Positions 6,674 to 32,558 of a stretch of 60,287 nt of DNA are shown here, in pieces. Origin of the DNA: an uncultured Holophagaceae bacterium. GTDB lineage: Bacteria; Acidobacteriota; Holophagae; Holophagales; Holophagaceae. Positions within the stretch are counted from its first letter, which is position 1; each line of letters opens with the position of its first letter. The translations under genes and the position numbers were made by a program. The notes beneath the pieces are model-generated. The model was not told where the DNA came from. It saw only the letters and a program-made list of their open reading frames with translations, and did no database searches. The stretch lies in NCBI GenBank assembly GCA_903913215.1, contig CAIWKE010000017.1:1-60287 (forward strand), in the 5' to 3' direction.

Positions 6674-7948
6674 TCAACTGAAGGAGAGGGCCCGCTCCAG
6701 GTCCTCGCGCAGGTCCTTGACGTCCTCCAGGCCCACGGAGAGGCGGATCAGGTCATCGCTGATGCCGGCGCGCTTGCGAGCCTCGGGGGTCATGGAGGCA
6801 TGGGTCATGGAGGCGGGGTGGGCCACCAGGGACTCCACGCCGCCCAGGCTCTCGGCCAGGGTGAACCAGCGCAGGCTGCGGAGCACGTGGTTGAGGCGGG
6901 TCTGGCCGCCCTCCTTAAGCTCGAAGCTGAGCATGGCGCCGAAGCCCTTCTGCTGGCGCTTGGCCAGGGCGTGCTGGGGGTGGCTGGGCAGGCCTGGGAA
7001 GTGGACCTTGCCCACGGCGGAATGGGCCAGCAGGAACTCCGCCAGCACCTGGGCCGTGGCCTCGTGCTGGCGCATGCGCAGGGGCAGGGTCTTGAGGCCG
7101 CGCAGCACCAGGAAGCAGTCGTGGGGCGCCTGGGAGGTGCCCAGCAGGTTGTTCACGCTCTGGATCTGCTGGCTGAGGGCCAGGCGGCCCGGGGCCGCGA
7201 CCACCACGCCGCCCACCACATCGCTGTGGCCGTTGAGGTATTTGGTGGTGGAGTGGATGACCAGGTCCGCACCCAGCTCAAAGGGACGCTGGAGGAAGGG
7301 GGACAGGAAGGTGTTGTCCACGGCCACCAGGCAGTCCGGCTGGGCGTGTCCGATGGCGGCCACGGCGGCGATGTCCGTGAGGCGCAGCAGGGGGTTCGAG
7401 GGCGTCTCCACCCAGATCATGCGCGTGTTGGGCCGCAGGGCGGCCTTGAGGCCCTCCAGGTCCGCCAGGTCCAGGTAGGTGACCTCCAGCCCGAAGAAGC
7501 GCTTGGCGTGCTCCAGGAGACGGAAGGTGCCGCCGTAGCAGTCCACGGTGCTGATGAGGTGGCTGCCATGGGGCAGCAGGTTCAGGGCCACCAGGATGGC
7601 GCTCATGCCGGTGCTGGTGCAGGTGGCGCCGTGGCCGCCCTCCAGCAGGGCGATGGCCTCTTCCAGGGCGGCGCGGGTGGGGTTGCCGCTGCGGGTGTAG
7701 TCATAGCCCGCGTTGGTGAGGATGTCTTTGAAGGCGAAGGTGGAGGAGAGATACAGGGGCGGCATCACCGCGCCGTAGGATGGATCCGGCTGCACGCCGC
7801 CGTGGACGCACTGAGTGCCCAGGCCCGCGCCGGGCACCAGGGCGGGCCGCTGCAGCCAACCCGCCCCGCCCTCTGGCACCGGGGGCAGGATAGTGAAGTG
7901 GTAGGCCGGGTTGCCCGGGACGTTGGTATCGAGGAACTGCTCGCTCAT
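6674..7948 (-). CDS. Cystathionine gamma-synthase / O-acylhomoserine sulfhydrylase-type PLP enzyme
   Basis: A Cys/Met-metabolism PLP enzyme of 424 residues. Motifs include PPLYLSSTFAF, YDYTRSGNPTR, the SerThr-rich TCTSTGMSAI loop, WVETPSNPLLRLTDI, AVDNTFLSPFLQRP and the PLP lysine in HSTTKYLNGHSDVVGG. It should carry out gamma-replacement on an activated homoserine, making cystathionine or homocysteine for methionine synthesis. The ATG at 7948 has GGAGG 5 nt upstream; a longer reading to 7993 would run into the leader. The SAM-I riboswitch just upstream strongly supports a methionine-pathway role. Exact substrate (cysteine or sulfide) is not decided by sequence alone. Confidence 0.88.
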   Translation of the reverse strand: MSEQFLDTNVPGNPAYHFTILPPVPEGGAGWLQRPALVPGAGLGTQCVHGGVQPDPSYGAVMPPLYLSSTFAFKDILTNAGYDYTRSGNPTRAALEEAIALLEGGHGATCTSTGMSAILVALNLLPHGSHLISTVDCYGGTFRLLEHAKRFFGLEVTYLDLADLEGLKAALRPNTRMIWVETPSNPLLRLTDIAAVAAIGHAQPDCLVAVDNTFLSPFLQRPFELGADLVIHSTTKYLNGHSDVVGGVVVAAPGRLALSQQIQSVNNLLGTSQAPHDCFLVLRGLKTLPLRMRQHEATAQVLAEFLLAHSAVGKVHFPGLPSHPQHALAKRQQKGFGAMLSFELKEGGQTRLNHVLRSLRWFTLAESLGGVESLVAHPASMTHASMTPEARKRAGISDDLIRLSVGLEDVKDLREDLERALSFS

Positions 7949-7991
7949 ATGAGCCTCCAAAATGAGGGATCTCATCGTTTCATTGCGACCC

Positions 7992-8030
7992 AAAAAAACG
8001 GAAGGGGCCCGATTGCTCGGGCCCCTTCCG
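7992..8030 (-). terminator. Riboswitch expression-platform terminator
   Basis: On the minus strand a 12-bp GC-rich stem (cggaaggggccc / gggccccttccg, loop of 8) ends in seven T residues. It lies between the SAM-I aptamer and the start codon at 7948, as expected of an OFF-switch terminator. Confidence 0.92.
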
Positions 8031-25124: not shown

Positions 25125-26720
25125 ATGACCAAGTATGTGTTCGTCACGGGTGGTGTGTTGTCGAGCCTGGGCAAGGGGATCGCGGCGGCTTCGCTGGGGG
25201 CGCTGCTGGAGGCGCGTGGGATCAAGGTCACGCTCATGAAGATGGATCCCTACCTCAATGTGGATCCGGGCACCATGTCGCCCTTCCAGCACGGCGAGGT
25301 CTTCGTCACCGATGACGGTGCCGAGACGGACCTGGACCTGGGCCACTACGAGCGGTTCACCTCGGTGCCCACCACGTCGAACCACACCATCACCACGGGG
25401 CGCATCTACAACACGGTGATCCAGAAGGAGCGCCGCGGCGACTATCTGGGCAAGACCGTGCAGGTGATCCCGCACATCACGGACGAGATCAAGGGCGTCA
25501 TGAAGAAGGTCGCCAAGGACATGGACGTGGTGATCGTGGAGATCGGCGGCACCGTGGGTGACATCGAGAGCCAGCCCTTCATTGAGGCCATCCGCCAGTT
25601 CAAGCTGGAGGCGGGTCTGGGCAACGCCATCAACATGCACCTCACCTACGTGCCCTACATCAAGACAGCCGGGGAGCTGAAGTCCAAGCCCACCCAGCAC
25701 AGTGTCAAGGAGCTGCGGGCCCTGGGTATCCAGCCGGACGTGCTGCTCTGCCGCGCCGAGCAGCACATCCCCCGGGAGCTGAAGGACAAGATCGCGCTGT
25801 TCTGCTCCGTCACGCAGGATGCGGTGTTCAGCGCCCTGGACGCTCACTCCATTTACGAAGTTCCCCTGAACCTGCACAAGGAGGGACTGGATGCCAAGGT
25901 CTCGGCCCTGCTGGGCCTGGGTGAGCAGGTGCCGGACCTCAGCGCCTGGGAAAACCTGCTGCATCGCATCCGCAATCCCAAGGGCAGCGTGCGCATCGGT
26001 GTGGTGGGCAAGTACGTGGAGTTCAAGGAGAGCTACAAGAGCCTCATCGAAGCCCTGCACCACGCGGGCTACGGTCTGGAGACCCAGGTGGACCTCAAGT
26101 GGATCGAGGCCGAGGATCTGGAGACCGTGGATCCCGCCAGCCTGCTGCAGGACTGCCACGGCATCCTCGTGCCCGGAGGCTTCGGCGTGCGTGGCACCCG
26201 CGGCATGATCAAGTCCATCCAGTACGCCCGTGAGCACAAGATCCCCTTCTTCGGCATCTGCCTCGGCATGCAGATGGCGTCCGTGGAGTTCGCACGGAAT
26301 GTGGCAGGCCTGGAAGGCGCGGACTCCACCGAGTTTGACGACGCGCCCAAGCACCGGGTCATCTTTAAACTGCGAGAGCTGGTGGATGTGGAGGAACTGG
26401 GCGGCACCATGCGGCTCGGCGCCTACCCCTGCCACTTGGCCCCGGATAGCCAGGCTGCCAAGGCCTACGGCACCACGGCCATCAGTGAACGCCATCGCCA
26501 CCGCTACGAGTTCAACCACGAGTTCAAGAAGGCACTGGAGGCCCAGGGCCTCCTGTTTACGGGCATGAGTCCCGATGGTGTCTTCGTGGAGATTGTGGAG
26601 CTGAAGGACCACCCCTACTTCCTGGCCTGCCAGTTCCACCCTGAGTTCAAGAGCCGCCCCCTGAACCCGCACCCGCTCTTCACCGCCTTCGTGAAGGCCA
26701 GCACCGCGGCACGGGGCTAG
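25125..26720 (+). CDS. pyrG: CTP synthase
   Basis: The 531-residue enzyme makes CTP from UTP, ATP and glutamine. The N-terminal synthetase domain starts [17 protein letters not shown], with [20 protein letters not shown] and [11 protein letters not shown]. The C-terminal glutamine amidotransferase domain has [10 protein letters not shown], the nucleophile [11 protein letters not shown] and the His/Glu pair in QFHPEFKS. Full length. TTAGGAG precedes ATG 25125. The repeat element D lies immediately upstream, so pyrG transcription may be affected by it. Confidence 0.97.
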
Positions 26721-27004: not shown

Positions 27005-28282
27005 ATGCAACTTTCGGGCTTGCGCTACGGATCCAAACTGCTGCAACTGGTGGAATTTCCAGTCGCAGACTTCATCGATGGCTCCGCCACGAACCAGGAG
27101 ATCCAGCAGTTCTTGGAAAAGCACAAGAAGCTGGTGGTGAAGCCGGCTTTCTACGGGGGTGTGGGCAAGAAGGGGAAAGCCGGGCTCGTGCGGGTGGTGA
27201 GCACCCTGCAGGAGGCCCTGCAGGCCAAGCGGGACCTTTTCTTCGCGCAGCACACCTACGGCAACAAGGTGGTCACGGCCAACGGCGTGACCATGGAGGC
27301 CTTCGTGCCCTCGGATCTGGAGGTCTACTTCAGCATCTCCAGTTCCAGCATCCACCGGGGTCCCGTGTTCACCATCACGCCCTGGGGTGGGGTGGACATC
27401 GAGGACCTGCCAGCCGAGAAGAAGGCCGTGGTGGAGATCGACCCCTTCATCGGCATCAACGCCTTCGAGATCACCAACGCTCTCACGGATACGGGCTGCC
27501 CCGAGGCCTTCATCTCGGCCCTGGTCCAGCACCTGCCCAAGCTGTGGGAACTCTACGACGGCTATGGCCTCACCACCATCGAGCTGAACCCCATCCGCGT
27601 GCAGCGGCGGGGTAATCAGATCCTGCCCGTGGCCTGCGATGTGAAGGCCAGCTTCGACCAGGACAACCCGGCCTGGAAGCGCATCGGCCTTCCGGATGTC
27701 CTCTTCCAGACTGAGACCACCCCCTTCGAGGCCGATATCAACGAGCTGCGCACTTACCAGGGCCAGAGCGACGTGCTGGAGATGAATCCCAAGGGGAGCA
27801 TCCTCCCCTTCATGTTTGGCGGCGGCGCCAACAGCGCGGGTACCGAGAGCCTGGGCGATGCGGCCATCTTCTCCTCGGACTTCGGCGGCAATCCACCCTA
27901 CGAGAAGATCTACGAAATCAGCCGCATCGTGTTCGAGCACTGGTACCAGCAGGCGGACATGCTCCTGCTCATCGGCGGCAAGGCCAACAACACGGACATC
28001 TACGTGACCTTCAAGGGGGTCTTCGACGCCCTGCGGGACCATGTGGCCAAGGCCGGCTGGAAGCCGCTGTACGTGGTGATCGGGCGGGGCGGTCCCAACG
28101 TGGTGAAGGGCATGTTCTACGCCAAGGACATCCTGGATCGGCTGCGGATGCCCTACCAGATGTTCGGCCACGACACGTCGATGATCCTCACGCTGGAACA
28201 CGCGCGGAAGATCGACCGATGGTGGCGCGCCGAGGGTGCCGATGCCTACCGCAAACAGATTGAAATCCAGGCGAGGTCCTAG
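27005..28282 (+). CDS. ATP-citrate lyase / citryl-CoA synthetase-type small subunit (ATP-grasp)
   Basis: This 425-residue protein matches the small (beta) subunit of ATP-citrate lyase and the N-terminal part of human ACLY. It has an ATP-grasp domain with KKLVVKPAFYGGVGKKGKAG, VPSDLEVYFSISSSSIHRGP, YGLTTIELNPIRV, and a CoA-ligase citrate-binding domain with LPFMFGGGANSAGTESLGDA, ADMLLLIGGKANNTD and VIGRGGPNVVKG. It should bind ATP and citrate and pair with the next gene product. GGGGGG bases precede ATG 27005. The next gene starts 2 bp after its stop. Confidence 0.83.
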   Translation: MQLSGLRYGSKLLQLVEFPVADFIDGSATNQEIQQFLEKHKKLVVKPAFYGGVGKKGKAGLVRVVSTLQEALQAKRDLFFAQHTYGNKVVTANGVTMEAFVPSDLEVYFSISSSSIHRGPVFTITPWGGVDIEDLPAEKKAVVEIDPFIGINAFEITNALTDTGCPEAFISALVQHLPKLWELYDGYGLTTIELNPIRVQRRGNQILPVACDVKASFDQDNPAWKRIGLPDVLFQTETTPFEADINELRTYQGQSDVLEMNPKGSILPFMFGGGANSAGTESLGDAAIFSSDFGGNPPYEKIYEISRIVFEHWYQQADMLLLIGGKANNTDIYVTFKGVFDALRDHVAKAGWKPLYVVIGRGGPNVVKGMFYAKDILDRLRMPYQMFGHDTSMILTLEHARKIDRWWRAEGADAYRKQIEIQARS

Positions 28283-28284
28283 TC

Positions 28285-31011
28285 ATGCGCAAACTCATCA
28301 CCCGCCCCTTCCCCTACTACGTGGGTCTCCACTCACTTGAGGAGCTGGTCACCAAGGAGAACCGCGTCTGCGTCATGAACATCCTGGGCAGCGAAAGCCG
28401 CAAGGTGACGCCCGTCTCCCATGAGTACAGCGGAGGCAACATCGTGGCTGGCGTGCAGTACGGTCGCCGGGGTTCCCTGGAGACCAAGCTCGGCCCCATT
28501 CCCGTGTATCGCAGCATCCGCGAGGTCATGGAGAAGGGCATCACCTTCGACATGGGCGTGGTCTACATTCCCCCCCTCGGTGTCTGCAAGGCCGTCTCCG
28601 AGCTGGTGACCCACAACGAGGCCCTCAAGCGCATCGTCATCGTCACGGAGAAGGTGCCCGCCCGCGACTCGCGCAACATCCGGGCGCTCTGCCAGGAAGC
28701 CGGCGTCGACGTCATCGGCGCCAACTGCCTGGGCATGGCCAATGCCTGGGACTGCGTGCGCATCGGTGGCAGCCTGGGCGGTGACCACCCGGAAGAAACG
28801 CTGAAGAAGGGCTCCATCGCCATTCATTCCAACTCAGGGAACTTCACCACCACCATGGCCGAGTACCTGCGGACGGCGGGCTTCGGCATCAGCACGGCGG
28901 TGTCCAGCGGGAAGGATGTCTACATCCACTTCGCCTTGCCGGAATTCCTCTATGCGGCCCAGAACGACCCCCGCACCAAGGCCGTGGTGATCTATGTGGA
29001 ACCCGGTGGATACTACGAAAAGATGGCCCTGGACTGGATCCAGGATCGCACCTTCGGCTTCACGAAGCCCATCATCGTCTGCGTCACAGGCCGCTGGAAA
29101 AAGAACATCACCCGGGCCTGTGGGCACGCGGGCGCCCTCTCGGGCAGCGGTGATGATGCCGAAGCCAAGGAACGCTGGTTTGACGAGTATTTCGGCGTGG
29201 GCGTCTTTGATCCGAAGACCCGTCAGGTCAGCAAGCGGGGCGTTCGAGTCTCCAGCATCCAGTACATCCCCGATGCCGTGCGGGCCGTCTACGAGAAGAT
29301 GGGCGAGCAGCCGGACTTCGAGACCACCGGCGACTTGTCCCTGAAGCTGTGGTTGGGCGACACCCAGGTGAAGCTTCCCGAGGGACTCAACCTGCCCCTG
29401 ACGACGCCGCCGTCGCCCTATGATCACCAGATCATCGAAGTGAACAAGCAGGTGGGGGCCCACTACCTCCGCCAGAACATGGCGGACAAGTCTGGTGCTT
29501 CCCGCATCAACCCCGAGTCCCAGGTCTCGGAACTGCACGGGAAGACCGTGCTCGATCTGTCCAAGCACACCATGGAGGAGAACCTCTACTTCGCGCTGGC
29601 CAAGGTGATGCCGGAGAAGACGGACCTGCCCACCCTGAACCTCATCCTGAACCTCTTCATGAAGATCGATGAGCGCCGCATGGAGCTTATCGATGTGGCC
29701 CGGGCCAACGGCTGCACGCCCAACGCCTACCTGGCTTCCCAGATCGCCCTGGTGGGCGACAAGGACCTGCTGGCGAAGTCCAGGAAGCACTCGCAGTTCA
29801 TCATCAACCTCATCCGCGAGTTCGGGCTGAACGAGTTGACCCGTGAATTCCCGATGGCGCTGGACCAGTACGTGGTGGAACACCTGCTCAGTGCCGAGCC
29901 CTCCCGCAAGACGGATGTCTCTGAGCTGCTCTTCAAAGAGGTCAAGCGGTCCAAGAAGTCCTGCGTGGCTCTGAAGGTCTGCCAGCACATCATCGATCTG
30001 GCCGAGCAGCGCCAGATGGAGATCCGCGACACCTACGAGTTCCTGCTCGCCACCATCGCAGTTTGCGTGCTCTGGAATCCCATGCTGGAGAAGCGCATCA
30101 GCCGGCAGATGGTGGAGGACGCCGTCACCTACTTCTACCTCATGAGCCGCATCGTGGCCTACTCGGCCGTGGATCGTGCGAACAATCCCCACTGGAAGAA
30201 GCTGGTGGACCAGAAGCTGTCCAACCTGAACCACAGCTTCACGGAGAACACGTTCAAGGTGCTCTTCGCCCGGGTGCCCGAACCGGGGGAGCTGCTAGAG
30301 CTGCAGACCCTCCTGGGGCTCACCATCACCAACGGTCCTGGCACCCTGTCTTCCAAGGGCGCCAAGGAGAGCGTCAGCGCCCGCAACGACATCTCCATGG
30401 CCTTTGTGGGCTTCCTGTCGAACACGGGGCGGGCTCATGGCGGCAACGGCTACGAGGCCATCGAGTTCCTGGTGGAGCAGTTCCAGGGCATCACCCTCGC
30501 CGATCCCGCCGATCCGAAGCATGGCCTGGACCTCAAGGCCATGGCCAACCGGGCGGCCAAGGCCTACGGCGCCTACAAGAAGGAGGCCCAGGAAGTTGAG
30601 GATGGCGTCGTGAAGCCCATCCCCTGCATCAACCACCCGGTCTTCCGGGGCAACAAGATCAATGTGGATCCCCGGGAGCAGTTCGTGGCGGCCCTCCTGG
30701 CCGAAAAGGGCGTCTACAACGTGTTCTGGGAGTTCTACCGCCACCTGGTGAAGGAACTCTACGCCGAGGGGGTCACGCGGAATGTGTTCTGCGTGAACGT
30801 GGACGCGGTTCTGGCCGTCATCACCCTCAAGCTGGTCTGGAAGGACCTCCAGGCGGGGCGCATCAACCTCCGCCAGGTTCAGGATCTGGCCTTCACCCTC
30901 TTCCTGTTCAGCCGCACCATCGGCATCACGGCTGAGATCGCCGATCACCGCGACCGCGGCCAGGACATGGACTGCCGCACGCCGGAGAATGAGCTGACGT
31001 TCGTGCTCTAG
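28285..31011 (+). CDS. ATP-citrate lyase-like large subunit, oversized, with citrate-synthase-like C-terminus
   Basis: This 908-residue protein starts with a CoA-binding SucD-like domain (GANCLGMANAWDCVRIGGSL, SIAIHSNSGNFTTTMAEYLR) and the phosphohistidine motif ACGHAGALSGSGDD (His281). From about residue 430 a citrate-synthase-like region follows, with GPGTLSSKGAKESVSARNDI, GGNGYEAIEFLVEQFQG, INHPVFRG (His784) and a NVDAVLAVI region near the end. Known AclA is about 600 residues, so about 300 are extra, mostly helical sequence between the two parts. It would form citryl-CoA with the small subunit and may cleave it to acetyl-CoA and oxaloacetate. Whether the lyase site is complete is not clear. 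Confidence 0.75.
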   Translation: MRKLITRPFPYYVGLHSLEELVTKENRVCVMNILGSESRKVTPVSHEYSGGNIVAGVQYGRRGSLETKLGPIPVYRSIREVMEKGITFDMGVVYIPPLGVCKAVSELVTHNEALKRIVIVTEKVPARDSRNIRALCQEAGVDVIGANCLGMANAWDCVRIGGSLGGDHPEETLKKGSIAIHSNSGNFTTTMAEYLRTAGFGISTAVSSGKDVYIHFALPEFLYAAQNDPRTKAVVIYVEPGGYYEKMALDWIQDRTFGFTKPIIVCVTGRWKKNITRACGHAGALSGSGDDAEAKERWFDEYFGVGVFDPKTRQVSKRGVRVSSIQYIPDAVRAVYEKMGEQPDFETTGDLSLKLWLGDTQVKLPEGLNLPLTTPPSPYDHQIIEVNKQVGAHYLRQNMADKSGASRINPESQVSELHGKTVLDLSKHTMEENLYFALAKVMPEKTDLPTLNLILNLFMKIDERRMELIDVARANGCTPNAYLASQIALVGDKDLLAKSRKHSQFIINLIREFGLNELTREFPMALDQYVVEHLLSAEPSRKTDVSELLFKEVKRSKKSCVALKVCQHIIDLAEQRQMEIRDTYEFLLATIAVCVLWNPMLEKRISRQMVEDAVTYFYLMSRIVAYSAVDRANNPHWKKLVDQKLSNLNHSFTENTFKVLFARVPEPGELLELQTLLGLTITNGPGTLSSKGAKESVSARNDISMAFVGFLSNTGRAHGGNGYEAIEFLVEQFQGITLADPADPKHGLDLKAMANRAAKAYGAYKKEAQEVEDGVVKPIPCINHPVFRGNKINVDPREQFVAALLAEKGVYNVFWEFYRHLVKELYAEGVTRNVFCVNVDAVLAVITLKLVWKDLQAGRINLRQVQDLAFTLFLFSRTIGITAEIADHRDRGQDMDCRTPENELTFVL

Positions 31012-31022
31012 TTGCTGAGTGC

Positions 31023-31062
31023 CAAAGAAAAGGGCGGGCCGAATGGCCCGCCCTTTTCTTTG
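31023..31062. terminator. Bidirectional terminator between convergent citrate genes
   Basis: A perfect 18-bp stem caaagaaaagggcgggcc / ggcccgcccttttctttg with a GAAT loop. It lies 12 bp after the large citrate-lyase-like gene and 15 bp after the end of the citrate synthase gene on the other strand. Confidence 0.92.
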
Positions 31063-31076
31063 CAGAGAAGCCGTTT

Positions 31077-32384
31077 CTACCGGCCGCCCTTGGTGGCCCA
31101 CTCTTCGAGCATGGCGGTGGTGACAGACTTGGGACGCTCCAGGGCATAGCCCAGGGCGCGGTCCCAGGTGATGTTGGCCAGCACGCCGATGGCGCGACCG
31201 ACACCGAACAGCACGGTGTAGTAATCGTACTCGGTGAGGCCGTAGTACCACTGGATCACGCCGCTCTGGGCATCGACGTTGGGCCAGGGGTTCTTGGTCT
31301 TGCCCTGCTCCGTGAGGACGCCTGGCGCCACGCGGTAGATCATGTTGACCAGCTTGAAGAGCGGGTCGTTGGGCAGGTGCTTCTGGCAGAACTCCATCTG
31401 GGCGGTGTACCGGGGATCGGTCTTGCGCAGCACCGCGTGGCCGTAACCGGGAATGACGTGGCCGGAGTTGAGGGTGTCCCAGAGGGCCTGCTTCACGTTC
31501 TCTTCGGTGGGCTCGGCGCCGTTCAGCTTCTTCTGGAAGGACTTGATCCAGTCCAGCACTTCCTGGTTGGCCAGGCCGTGGAGCGGGCCGGCCAGGCCGT
31601 TGAGGCCGGCACTGAAGGAGTAGTAGGCGTCCGACAGGGCCGAAGCCACCAGGTGGGTGGTGTGGGCGCTGACGTTGCCGCTCTCGTGGTCGCTGTGGAG
31701 GATGAAATACATGCGGGAGACATCGTCGTAGGGCTTGGGGATGCCCATCATGTGCGCGAAGTCGGCGCCGAAGTCGAGGGTGGGATCCGAGGCGATGATC
31801 TCGCCGTTCTTGTACTTGTAGCGGTAGATGAAGGCGGCGATCTCGGGCAGCTTGGCCAGCAGGTCGCAGGCATCCTCATACATGGGATCCCAGTAGTCGT
31901 TCTTCTTCATGCCATGGTAGGCGGCGGCGAACTTGCTTTCCTTCTGCATGGCCAGCACGGCCGAGGACAGCATCACCATGGGGTGGGTGTCCTTGGGCAG
32001 GGCGCGGAGCACGTCGAAGACGTAGGCGGGCACCTTGGCGCGGGACCGGAAGTCCTGGTGGATCTCTTCGGCCTCCTCGGGGGTGGGAATGTCGCCGGTG
32101 AGCATGAAGAAGAAGAAGGACTCCACCGTGGGGTACTCGGCGCCGGGCAGCTTAGGCAGGGCGGCGAAGGTCTCGGGGATGTTCTTCCCGCGGAAGCGGA
32201 TGCCTTCCTGGGAATCCAGGTAGGACAGGTCCGTCACCAGGCACTTGATGTCCCGGGCGCCGCCGATGCACTGGTCGATGGTCACCTCATCGATGACGAC
32301 CTTCCCGTGTTCCTTCAGGAGGTTGGCGGTTCGCGGGCGGAGTTCCTGGATCTTTTCCAGAAGCCTGGCTTTGAGTCGGGTCAT
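31077..32384 (-). CDS. gltA: Citrate synthase, eukaryote-like type
   Basis: The 435-residue enzyme resembles mitochondrial citrate synthase rather than the E. coli type. The catalytic His regions are SDHESGNVSAHTTHLVASAL and VIPGYGHAVLRKTDPRY. The aspartate region is PNVDAQSGVIQWYYGL, followed by YYTVLFGVGRAIGVLA. Such synthases are known in Geobacteraceae. It condenses acetyl-CoA and oxaloacetate in the TCA cycle. ATG 32384 has AGGAGG upstream; the longer reading to 32453 lacks family sequence. The convergent citrate-lyase-like pair may run the reverse chemistry. Confidence 0.93.
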   Translation of the reverse strand: MTRLKARLLEKIQELRPRTANLLKEHGKVVIDEVTIDQCIGGARDIKCLVTDLSYLDSQEGIRFRGKNIPETFAALPKLPGAEYPTVESFFFFMLTGDIPTPEEAEEIHQDFRSRAKVPAYVFDVLRALPKDTHPMVMLSSAVLAMQKESKFAAAYHGMKKNDYWDPMYEDACDLLAKLPEIAAFIYRYKYKNGEIIASDPTLDFGADFAHMMGIPKPYDDVSRMYFILHSDHESGNVSAHTTHLVASALSDAYYSFSAGLNGLAGPLHGLANQEVLDWIKSFQKKLNGAEPTEENVKQALWDTLNSGHVIPGYGHAVLRKTDPRYTAQMEFCQKHLPNDPLFKLVNMIYRVAPGVLTEQGKTKNPWPNVDAQSGVIQWYYGLTEYDYYTVLFGVGRAIGVLANITWDRALGYALERPKSVTTAMLEEWATKGGR

Positions 32385-32558
32385 GGGGCGCCTCCTGTGG
32401 AAGAAAACAAAAAGGAATTGGGAGAACAAGGTAGCGAATGGTTGCATGCCCACCTACCCTCAGGGCACGCTGGATTGCTCTGAACTACTCAAGAATTAGT
32501 CCACCTGGACTGTCGGGAACGTCAGGGCAGGATATTACCTTTGTGCAAAGGATGTTCC

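Follow-up and report, generated by a model that had tools for sequence, protein, structure and literature searches.

The window analysed here is the whole 60,287-nucleotide stretch of a contig from an uncultured Holophagaceae bacterium. Two open reading frames on its forward strand, P1 (425 aa) and P2 (908 aa), are separated by a gap of 2 bp and were found exactly where an earlier note on this DNA had placed proteins of these lengths. They lie between a gene that we take to be the CTP synthase gene pyrG and a convergent citrate synthase gene, with the following features.

25125..26720, + strand: pyrG, left border of the cassette (open reading frame list; neighbourhood in the genus)
27005..28282, + strand: P1, ATP-grasp / citrate-binding subunit, AclB / CcsA-like (PF16114, 6hxq_B, GGKANNTD)
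28285..31011, + strand: P2, CoA-ligase alpha part followed on one chain by two citryl-CoA-lyase-like modules (profiles and model)
28327..29319, + strand: P2 residues 15-345, CoA-binding / ligase alpha part, which contains phospho-His281 and E122 (6hxq_A, conservation)
29320..29466, + strand: P2 residues 346-394, variable linker of low model confidence (pLDDT, conservation)
29467..30219, + strand: P2 residues 395-645, first, degenerate citryl-CoA-lyase-like module (model alignment, profile comparison)
30220..31008, + strand: P2 residues 646-908, second citryl-CoA-lyase module, predicted to be catalytic (profiles, residue map)
31023..31062, no strand: perfect 18-bp inverted repeat, probably a bidirectional terminator that serves both P2 and the citrate synthase gene (repeat and fold)
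31077..32453, - strand: convergent eukaryote-type citrate synthase (family models)

The stop-to-stop spacer between P2 and the citrate synthase gene is 65 bp long and holds the inverted repeat, which has a 4-nt loop, A-rich and T-rich flanks and a predicted fold of -47.5 kcal/mol (z -6.3). This hairpin probably terminates both genes. A shared terminator between convergent genes had been claimed before; the convergence and the hairpin were confirmed, but a simple terminator scan did not list the repeat. Upstream of P1, a promoter search returned a single match, which is the chance level (1 found, 1.0 expected), and a conserved operator was rejected as a candidate because, beyond the start, 11 upstream regions have in common little more than a patch that loosely resembles a promoter. 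The citrate synthase, which likely starts at a Met 23 codons into its open reading frame, scored 778 bits with NF007128 and 581 bits with TIGR01793, below the cut-off of the latter (619.75). These family models place it close to the eukaryote type, as had been proposed, and it is the sole separate PF00285 gene detected in the genome.

The proposal that P1 and P2 correspond to the two subunits of ATP-citrate lyase (ACL) was supported at the level of homology for both proteins. As in ACL, P1 combines an ATP-grasp beta part with a citrate-binding domain (PF16114, 60.9 bits, cut-off 26.8; ATP-grasp_2, 53.5 bits, cut-off 29.5), and the ACL-specific ATP-grasp model PF24948 gave 52.8, below its cut-off of 83. 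The best solved relative of P1 is the large subunit of Hydrogenobacter citryl-CoA synthetase (6hxq_B, E 5.7e-33). The motif GGKANNTD is invariant in all 28 distinct sequences; in alignments, ANNT is common to P1 and the Hydrogenobacter synthetase and RGGPN to P1 and Methanothrix ACL, and within the P1 family ANNT and GRGGP are retained in 28/28 and the following Asn in 27/28. Of 29 loci, 27 have P1 upstream of P2, and the remaining two start inside P2. All NCBIfam scores for P1 and P2 stayed below the respective cut-offs, so that annotation may leave without a name an enzyme that probably cleaves citrate in Geothrix, Ignavibacteria and KSB1.

P2 matched the Succ_CoA_lig, CoA_binding and Citrate_synt profiles, and the best relative of its ligase part (residues 25-301) is CcsB (6hxq_A, E 1.6e-35). 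H281, which the earlier note had assigned to the CoA-ligase part, sits in the GHAGA loop of the alpha part, where ACL carries its phospho-histidine, and is invariant together with E122 (42/42 distinct sequences). At 908 residues, P2 exceeds Chlorobium AclA (617 residues, PDB chain 6hxj_B) by 291, in agreement with an initial estimate of about 300. Its unusual length alone could suggest an assembly or gene-fusion artefact. This explanation is refuted, since a stretch of 899-910 residues (matched stretches, not open reading frames with determined start codons) is present in each of 42 distinct sequences, that of the window among them, from named isolates and from MAGs labelled with several phyla. 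In the linker (346-394), 9 of 49 positions are invariant and pLDDT is below 50 at residues 343-406; the model of full-length P2 is of low quality in its ligase part (mean pLDDT 67). With profiles and model combined, P2 reads as a CoA-ligase followed by a degenerate and then a putatively catalytic citryl-CoA lyase (CCL) module.

As in ACL, a single polypeptide carries both the CoA-binding alpha part and the second module. In profile comparison this module matched 23 CCL sequences with an E of 2.7e-11, covering P2 residues 640-908, and 20 citrate synthase (CS) sequences with an E of 1.6e-8; NF004869 gave 38 bits, under its cut-off of 212. The residue map bears out most of the expected lyase residues, with H718, H784, R797, D840 and R877 retained in all 42 distinct sequences, but one His common to the CCL and CS profiles is replaced by N683 in the same 42. 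We take H718, H784 and D840 to be the equivalents of His274, His320 and Asp375 of pig citrate synthase, and N683 that of its oxaloacetate-binding His238. By motif, N683 and D840 presumably correspond to H900 and D1026 of human ACLY. Since the replacement of the shared His by Asn extends to every distinct copy, a changed acid substrate is possible. H900 and D1026 belong to the ACLY lyase module according to PMC10115795.

Unlike ACL, which has one CCL module per chain, P2 is predicted to carry a second CCL-like fold at residues 395-645. When residues 392-650 were modelled alone (mean pLDDT 75.7), the 19 top rows of the VIA alignment, on which the fold assignment rests and in which helical folds may reach a Z of about 13 through common arrangement, were all CCL modules at Z 9.9-11.4, coming from four proteins only and belonging either to CCL itself or to ACL chains whose CCL module was aligned. 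The human CCL module (6hxk_B, ACLY 841-1079) gave Z 11.4 over 194 aligned residues and Hydrogenobacter Ccl (6hxp) Z 10.5 over 182, compared with up to 8.9 for citrate synthases, most of which were aligned in their C-terminal rather than N-terminal part, and 4.6 or less for unrelated folds. Foldseek with the same domain model returned weak matches (best E 0.67, probability 0.75), a mixture of CCL and unrelated helical proteins. The stretch between ligase and lyase had been described simply as helical sequence; it is helical, but with a CCL fold when modelled alone it is no mere spacer.

Comparison of the profiles of the first and second copies gave a colinear match over 196 columns with an E of 2.6e-4, one single comparison, against 0.022 and 0.030 for reversed controls. 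The first copy against the CCL profile gave an E of 0.015 (0.043 with sides swapped), no better than reversed controls. A 17-row profile of residues 365-908 found nothing significant in a PDB sequence search, where citrate synthase 2c6x (E 0.33) and Ccl 6hxp (E 0.39) came after the first unrelated matches at E 0.18. On this sequence evidence, the case for a doubling of the lyase module is weak. A global profile alignment of the two copies was discarded, being spoilt by six residues common to both at their border. The final helices of the first module correspond to those at the end of the second. The first copy varies fast and has lost both catalytic His, and only 12 of its 251 positions are invariant among the distinct sequences compared, against 68 of 263 in the second copy.

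The two modules together also resemble a complete citrate synthase. Residues 397-899 of the whole-P2 model align with whole CS chains (3hwk_B, Z 26.3, 332/364 aligned), methylcitrate synthases being tied with citrate synthases among the top folds, and the model and the residue map together indicate a whole CS-type fold with the catalytic His/His/Asp. NF010636 matches residues 399-503 as CS 17-121, and PF00285 matches residues 619-889 as positions 123-348 (36.5 bits, cut-off 27; 18 of 27 family members at E 0.01). These successive matches, together with an E of 1.7e-4 over 87 columns between the CS N-terminal half and the first copy, as strong as the match between the two copies, would also fit a single CS-type domain (N part about 398-515, C part 645-908) that holds an unrelated helical insertion of about 130 residues and is fused to a citryl-CoA synthetase. 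We consider this unlikely, as the stretch that includes the supposed insertion, modelled alone, covers most of the length of a CCL module, aligns in most rows to the C-terminal, not the N-terminal, part of CS, and ends in helices that match those of the second copy. The single-domain reading and a duplication largely coincide, because the CS N-terminal half is itself similar to the beginning of CCL (E 1.7e-7).

Gene layout, domain make-up, the predicted fold of the extra part and residue conservation, all computed, point to an ATP-dependent citrate-cleaving enzyme formed by P1 and P2, whose extra ~250 residues would be an inactive duplicated lyase module partnering the active one; we put the probability of this reading at about two in three. 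As judged from sequence, ATP-dependent citrate cleavage is the most likely function that we infer for the pair. Citrate, ATP and CoA would be converted via phospho-His281 and citryl-CoA to acetyl-CoA, oxaloacetate, ADP and Pi. Synthesis of citryl-CoA would fall to P1 together with the first third of P2, as in ACL and Hydrogenobacter citryl-CoA synthetase, and the last module of P2 would cleave this intermediate or, following the reading of PMC10115795, may instead steer the cleavage. The first module, its catalytic residues lost, would serve as a structural partner, so that one P2 chain might form a lyase pseudo-dimer. In principle the reaction can run in either direction. In Geothrix, where the only detected citrate synthase adjoins the pair, our guess is that it may cleave citrate for acetyl-CoA supply or citrate use; no CitF over the cut-off was found in the 14 Geothrix genomes searched.

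The fixed Asn at the position of the His of CCL, CS and ACLY (H900), and the methylcitrate synthases among the top folds, could mean that the same scaffold serves as a ligase/lyase for another hydroxy acid, for example a methylcitrate- or citramalate-like one, with N683 marking the change. This seems improbable to us: those folds are tied with citrate synthases, P1 scores above the Pfam citrate-binding cut-off and keeps ANNT, GRGGP and nearly always its Asn, and the remaining lyase residues are retained. We give just as little credence to a role as key enzyme of the reductive TCA cycle for CO2 fixation. ACL is called diagnostic of that cycle in PMC9560492, but PMC6137239 warns that aclAB alone is no proof; moreover, a search of 47 Geothrix genomes, incomplete ones included, did not find the pair in 30 of them, and citrate synthase is present in all 14 examined.

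Like AclA/AclB (Chlorobium 6hxj, Methanothrix 6hxi), P1-P2 has the ligase alpha part and a CCL module on one chain and a separate beta subunit, and it shares with AclA/AclB and human ACLY the phospho-His and, as judged by motif, a lyase His and Asp. ACL, however, has one CCL module in 617-631 residues, whereas P2 has two CCL-like modules in 908, and His900 of human ACLY is Asn in P2. Among solved structures, Hydrogenobacter CcsA/CcsB (6hxq) come closest to both ligase parts, for which the same chemistry is expected, but Hydrogenobacter Ccl (6hxp) is a separate protein, whereas in P2 the lyase appears fused and doubled on one 908-aa open frame. Compared with citrate synthase (PF00285; 3hwk, 3tqg), the two modules align with nearly the whole chain and keep the three catalytic residues, the first being more complete than the CS N-terminal half; unlike CS, they are attached to an ATP-dependent ligase, and Asn replaces the equivalent of His238. 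Verschueren et al. reportedly proposed in 2019 that the tetrameric lyase core found in the reverse cycle gave rise to citrate synthase. If P2 does join two lyase modules, one of them degenerate, to a ligase that makes citryl-CoA, it would be a natural and living test object for this step. More speculatively, and with considerable doubt, P2 may represent the tandem stage between a four-module CCL and the two-chain citrate synthase, kept in a working ACL; its degenerate and active modules would then form a CS-like pseudo-dimer within an inferred (P1)2(P2)2 complex with two active sites, not four, which may condense acetyl-CoA and oxaloacetate without nucleotide. With one of its two copies devoid of catalytic residues, P2 also bears on the dispute, described in PMC10115795, whether the human ACLY lyase domain cleaves or only regulates. 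A two-lyase-module ACL architecture was not described among the matches listed in the searched literature on ACL in Geobacter, Geothrix, Ignavibacteria and KSB1, on fused or duplicated CCL and on the TCA cycle or citrate use of Geothrix, a scope that leaves most subscription papers outside and covers the others in part.

The long form of P2 occurs in Holophagaceae, another acidobacterial lineage, Ignavibacteria and KSB1. The survey of co-occurrence with citrate synthase suggested in the earlier note revealed a tie, but in Holophagaceae-like loci only (12/29). Five of 24 genomes had no separate citrate synthase over the cut-off, and within the phylum to which the KSB1 carrier belongs a separate PF00285 match was missing from 8/16 carriers and 15/66 non-carriers, a PF00285 match that is the fusion itself being scored as none. 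A role of the fusion as a citrate synthase substitute was rejected, as the genomes that lack one are listed close together and many of them are non-carriers, and MAG completeness is unstated. In Geothrix, P1-P2 is a presence/absence cassette found in 17 of 47 genomes; Geothrix fermentans DSM 14018 has the pair. A tree of 14 genomes (citrate synthase and neighbouring protein) was weakly supported and did not unite the five carriers in one clade, so that gain and loss are both possible. In the Holophagaceae-like loci the pair lies between pyrG and the citrate synthase gene; it is missing from this position in 9 of the 14 Geothrix genomes examined, and where it is missing pyrG neighbours citrate synthase.

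The gene pair P1-P2, located in a genome of 3.9 Mb, is a real and conserved variant of ATP-citrate lyase (ACL), and we found no description of its architecture in the portion of the literature covered by our searches. The genes at the locus are as follows:

25125-26720 (+), pyrG
27005-28282 (+), P1, ATP-grasp/citrate-binding subunit, 425 aa
28285-31011 (+), P2, 908 aa, 2 bp after P1: ligase part (residues 15-345), linker (346-394), first (395-645) and second (646-908) copy of a citryl-CoA-lyase-like (CCL) module
31077-32453 (-), citrate synthase, convergent to P1-P2

P1 passed the Pfam cut-off for the ACL citrate-binding domain, and among solved structures it is closest to the Hydrogenobacter citryl-CoA synthetase large subunit and then to ACL. 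The alpha part that goes with it makes up the first third of P2 (6hxq_A, E 1.6e-35) and contains H281 in its phospho-His loop. No NCBIfam model reached its cut-off for P1 or P2. The last 260 residues of P2 gave weak single-sequence matches to CCL and to the C-terminal domain of citrate synthase, and profile comparison yielded E values of 2.7e-11 against 23 CCL sequences and 1.6e-8 against 20 citrate synthases. The citrate-binding domain in P1 and the alpha part and CCL match in P2 support the identification of the pair as ACL subunits in the earlier note. In the profile alignment of the second copy, H718 (HGGN), H784 (INHP), R797 (DPR), D840 (NVDA) and R877 match residues of CCL and citrate synthase, and they are invariant in all 42 distinct P2 sequences (window counted). 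Conservation of the citryl-CoA lyase residues, which the earlier note proposed to test, thus holds for these five, but not for the DHG/DHE-motif His common to both families, which is replaced by N683 in 42/42. Invariant positions amount to 133/331 in the ligase part and 68/263 in the second copy.

A model of the whole of P2, built from a 27-sequence alignment, had a mean pLDDT of 67, with blocks of 66-93 across 411-680. Its residues 397-899 aligned with complete citrate synthases (3hwk_B, Z 26.3, 332/364 residues, rmsd 4.1), so that an insertion into a citrate synthase could, on the model, account for this part. Residues 392-650 were therefore modelled alone (mean pLDDT 75.7) as a test of this possibility. 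The best 19 VIA rows, which stem from only four proteins (human ACLY, Chlorobium ACL, Methanothrix ACL and Hydrogenobacter Ccl), were without exception either CCL modules or ACL chains whose alignment fell in the CCL module, with Z of 9.9 to 11.4, a size that helical folds can reach through common arrangement. They were followed by 15 citrate synthase rows (Z 6.4 to 8.9), mostly aligned to the C-terminal part, after which Z fell to 4.6 or less. This placing of CCL modules above citrate synthases argues against the insertion, and because of the row order and the gap beneath we read the first copy as a CCL fold; the best CCL/ACL match in Foldseek had an E value of only 0.67. The proposed comparison with ACLY placed the stretch on the ACLY CCL module (6hxk_B, 194/261 residues, model 41-243 on ACLY 841-1079, rmsd 5.0), so that the stretch, described as helical sequence in the note, is by its predicted fold more than a spacer.

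The first-copy profile (40 sequences) matched the second-copy profile (39) over 196 colinear columns with an E value of 2.6e-4, compared with 0.022 and 0.030 for reversed controls. Against CCL, 187 colinear columns gave E 0.015, no better than these controls (0.002 in global mode, 0.043 with sides swapped), and the N-terminal half of citrate synthase was matched over 87 columns, at E 1.7e-4 when this half was used alone and 0.0013 when the whole chain was used. The CCL profile itself matches citrate synthase at 193-429, and its start matches again at 53-111 (E 3.1e-7), so that citrate synthase, as judged from profiles, shows the same apparent trace of doubling as P2. The most economical reading is that P2 contains two CCL modules in tandem, the first degenerate; predicted structure makes a fairly strong case for this architecture, sequence a weak one. 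On this reading, the halves of citrate synthase correspond to the two modules in the same order, but the first copy is more complete in P2. That P2 keeps a tandem stage between CCL and citrate synthase is attractive but unproven. The first copy has no His at the catalytic His positions of the second, carries E585 (38/42) and R622 (33/42) at the positions of D840 and R877, and is invariant at 12/251 positions; the lost His and low invariance would fit a structural, non-catalytic role.

A contig scan returned 29 loci, including Geothrix fermentans, G. oryzisoli, G. paludis and G. limicola as well as MAGs labelled Ignavibacteria, KSB1 and Thermoanaerobaculia. P1 lies upstream of P2 in 27 of them, and the remaining 2 start inside P2. 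In the proposed survey of co-occurrence, the convergent citrate synthase was seen in 12/29 stretches, all labelled Holophagaceae or placed there by 83-91% identity, but not in the other 17, several of which stop shortly past P2. P1-P2 was present in 17/47 genomes of the window's genus (taken as Geothrix) and in 1/30 of the family's other genera, incomplete genomes counted. Among 199 Acidobacteriota there were at least 6 full-length matches, all others among the matches listed spanning the ligase part only. The phylum of an Ignavibacteria carrier gave 5/296 and its class 9/294 (those 5 included), and that of a KSB1 carrier 16/82 (3 of the 16 partial or split). Identity across P2 falls to 49% in distant members. 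In the phylum of the KSB1 carrier, many genomes listed close together (G829-G857, G211-G214) had no PF00285 match, with or without P1-P2. Among the 29 loci, the pair nearest to that of the window (95 and 91%) is in a MAG labelled Myxococcales (CAIZWN010000076.1, 3530-7542), with no citrate synthase found within 6 kb beyond P2; either transfer or a binning error would account for it.

Of 14 genomes compared within the window's genus, P2 adjoins citrate synthase in 5/5 carriers, while in the 9 non-carriers the next window gene found beside citrate synthase is pyrG, at ~70-90 bp in 7 and 1.1-1.3 kb in 2. P1-P2 is therefore a cassette that some genomes have between these two genes and others lack. 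In a tree with weak support, the carriers did not group together as a single clade. The 1.1-1.3 kb of other sequence in the two non-carriers (L136, L139) are possibly remnants of loss or another insertion. The 65 bp between the stops of P2 and citrate synthase contain an inverted repeat, perfect over 18 bp, which is flanked by an A-run on one side and a T-run on the other and can hence be used by both genes. It is probably the shared terminator proposed in the note, though a simple terminator scan did not list it.

An ACL mechanism would be the simplest for P1-P2, and an ATP-citrate-lyase-type reaction is likely. In PMC10115795, the lyase-like domain of human ACLY is argued to be allosteric, not catalytic, while D1026 acts as the base in the older model; since P2 keeps the equivalent Asp, both roles are possible. 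A PF00285 search of the genome matched the convergent citrate synthase alone. CitF (ATP-independent citrate lyase) exceeded its cut-off in 8/37 genome handles searched, all within 11 carriers (G207-G217), in 0/14 genomes of the window's genus (2 with a weak partial match) and in none of the named Holophagaceae handles, partly the same genomes. P1-P2 is thus the only citrate-cleaving system found in Geothrix carriers besides citrate synthase; searches for CitF and P1-P2 found none in non-carriers. Geothrix fermentans ferments citrate, a trait not mentioned in the text consulted. Geobacter bemidjiensis has a different route, a citCDEFXG cluster (PMC2996986), reversed citrate synthase is discussed for G. 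sulfurreducens (PMC7894505), ACL was not found in Melioribacter roseus (PMC3534657), and aclAB is reported in one MAG from a phylum near KSB1 (PMC10464287).

A separate CCL gene exceeded the family cut-off in 0/14 genomes of the window's genus and in 25/199 Acidobacteriota (e.g., G093:C104, G162:C41, G111:C8; loci L104-L128), with a ligase-alpha gene no more than 1 kb away in at least 11 of these, which points to Ccs/Ccl-like sets in this phylum. Elsewhere in the window, a predicted SAM riboswitch (RF00162, 8048-8148 (-), 80.9 bits) lies directly upstream of the gene at 6674-7993 (-), whose product we take to be a cystathionine-synthase-like enzyme, an ordinary placement.
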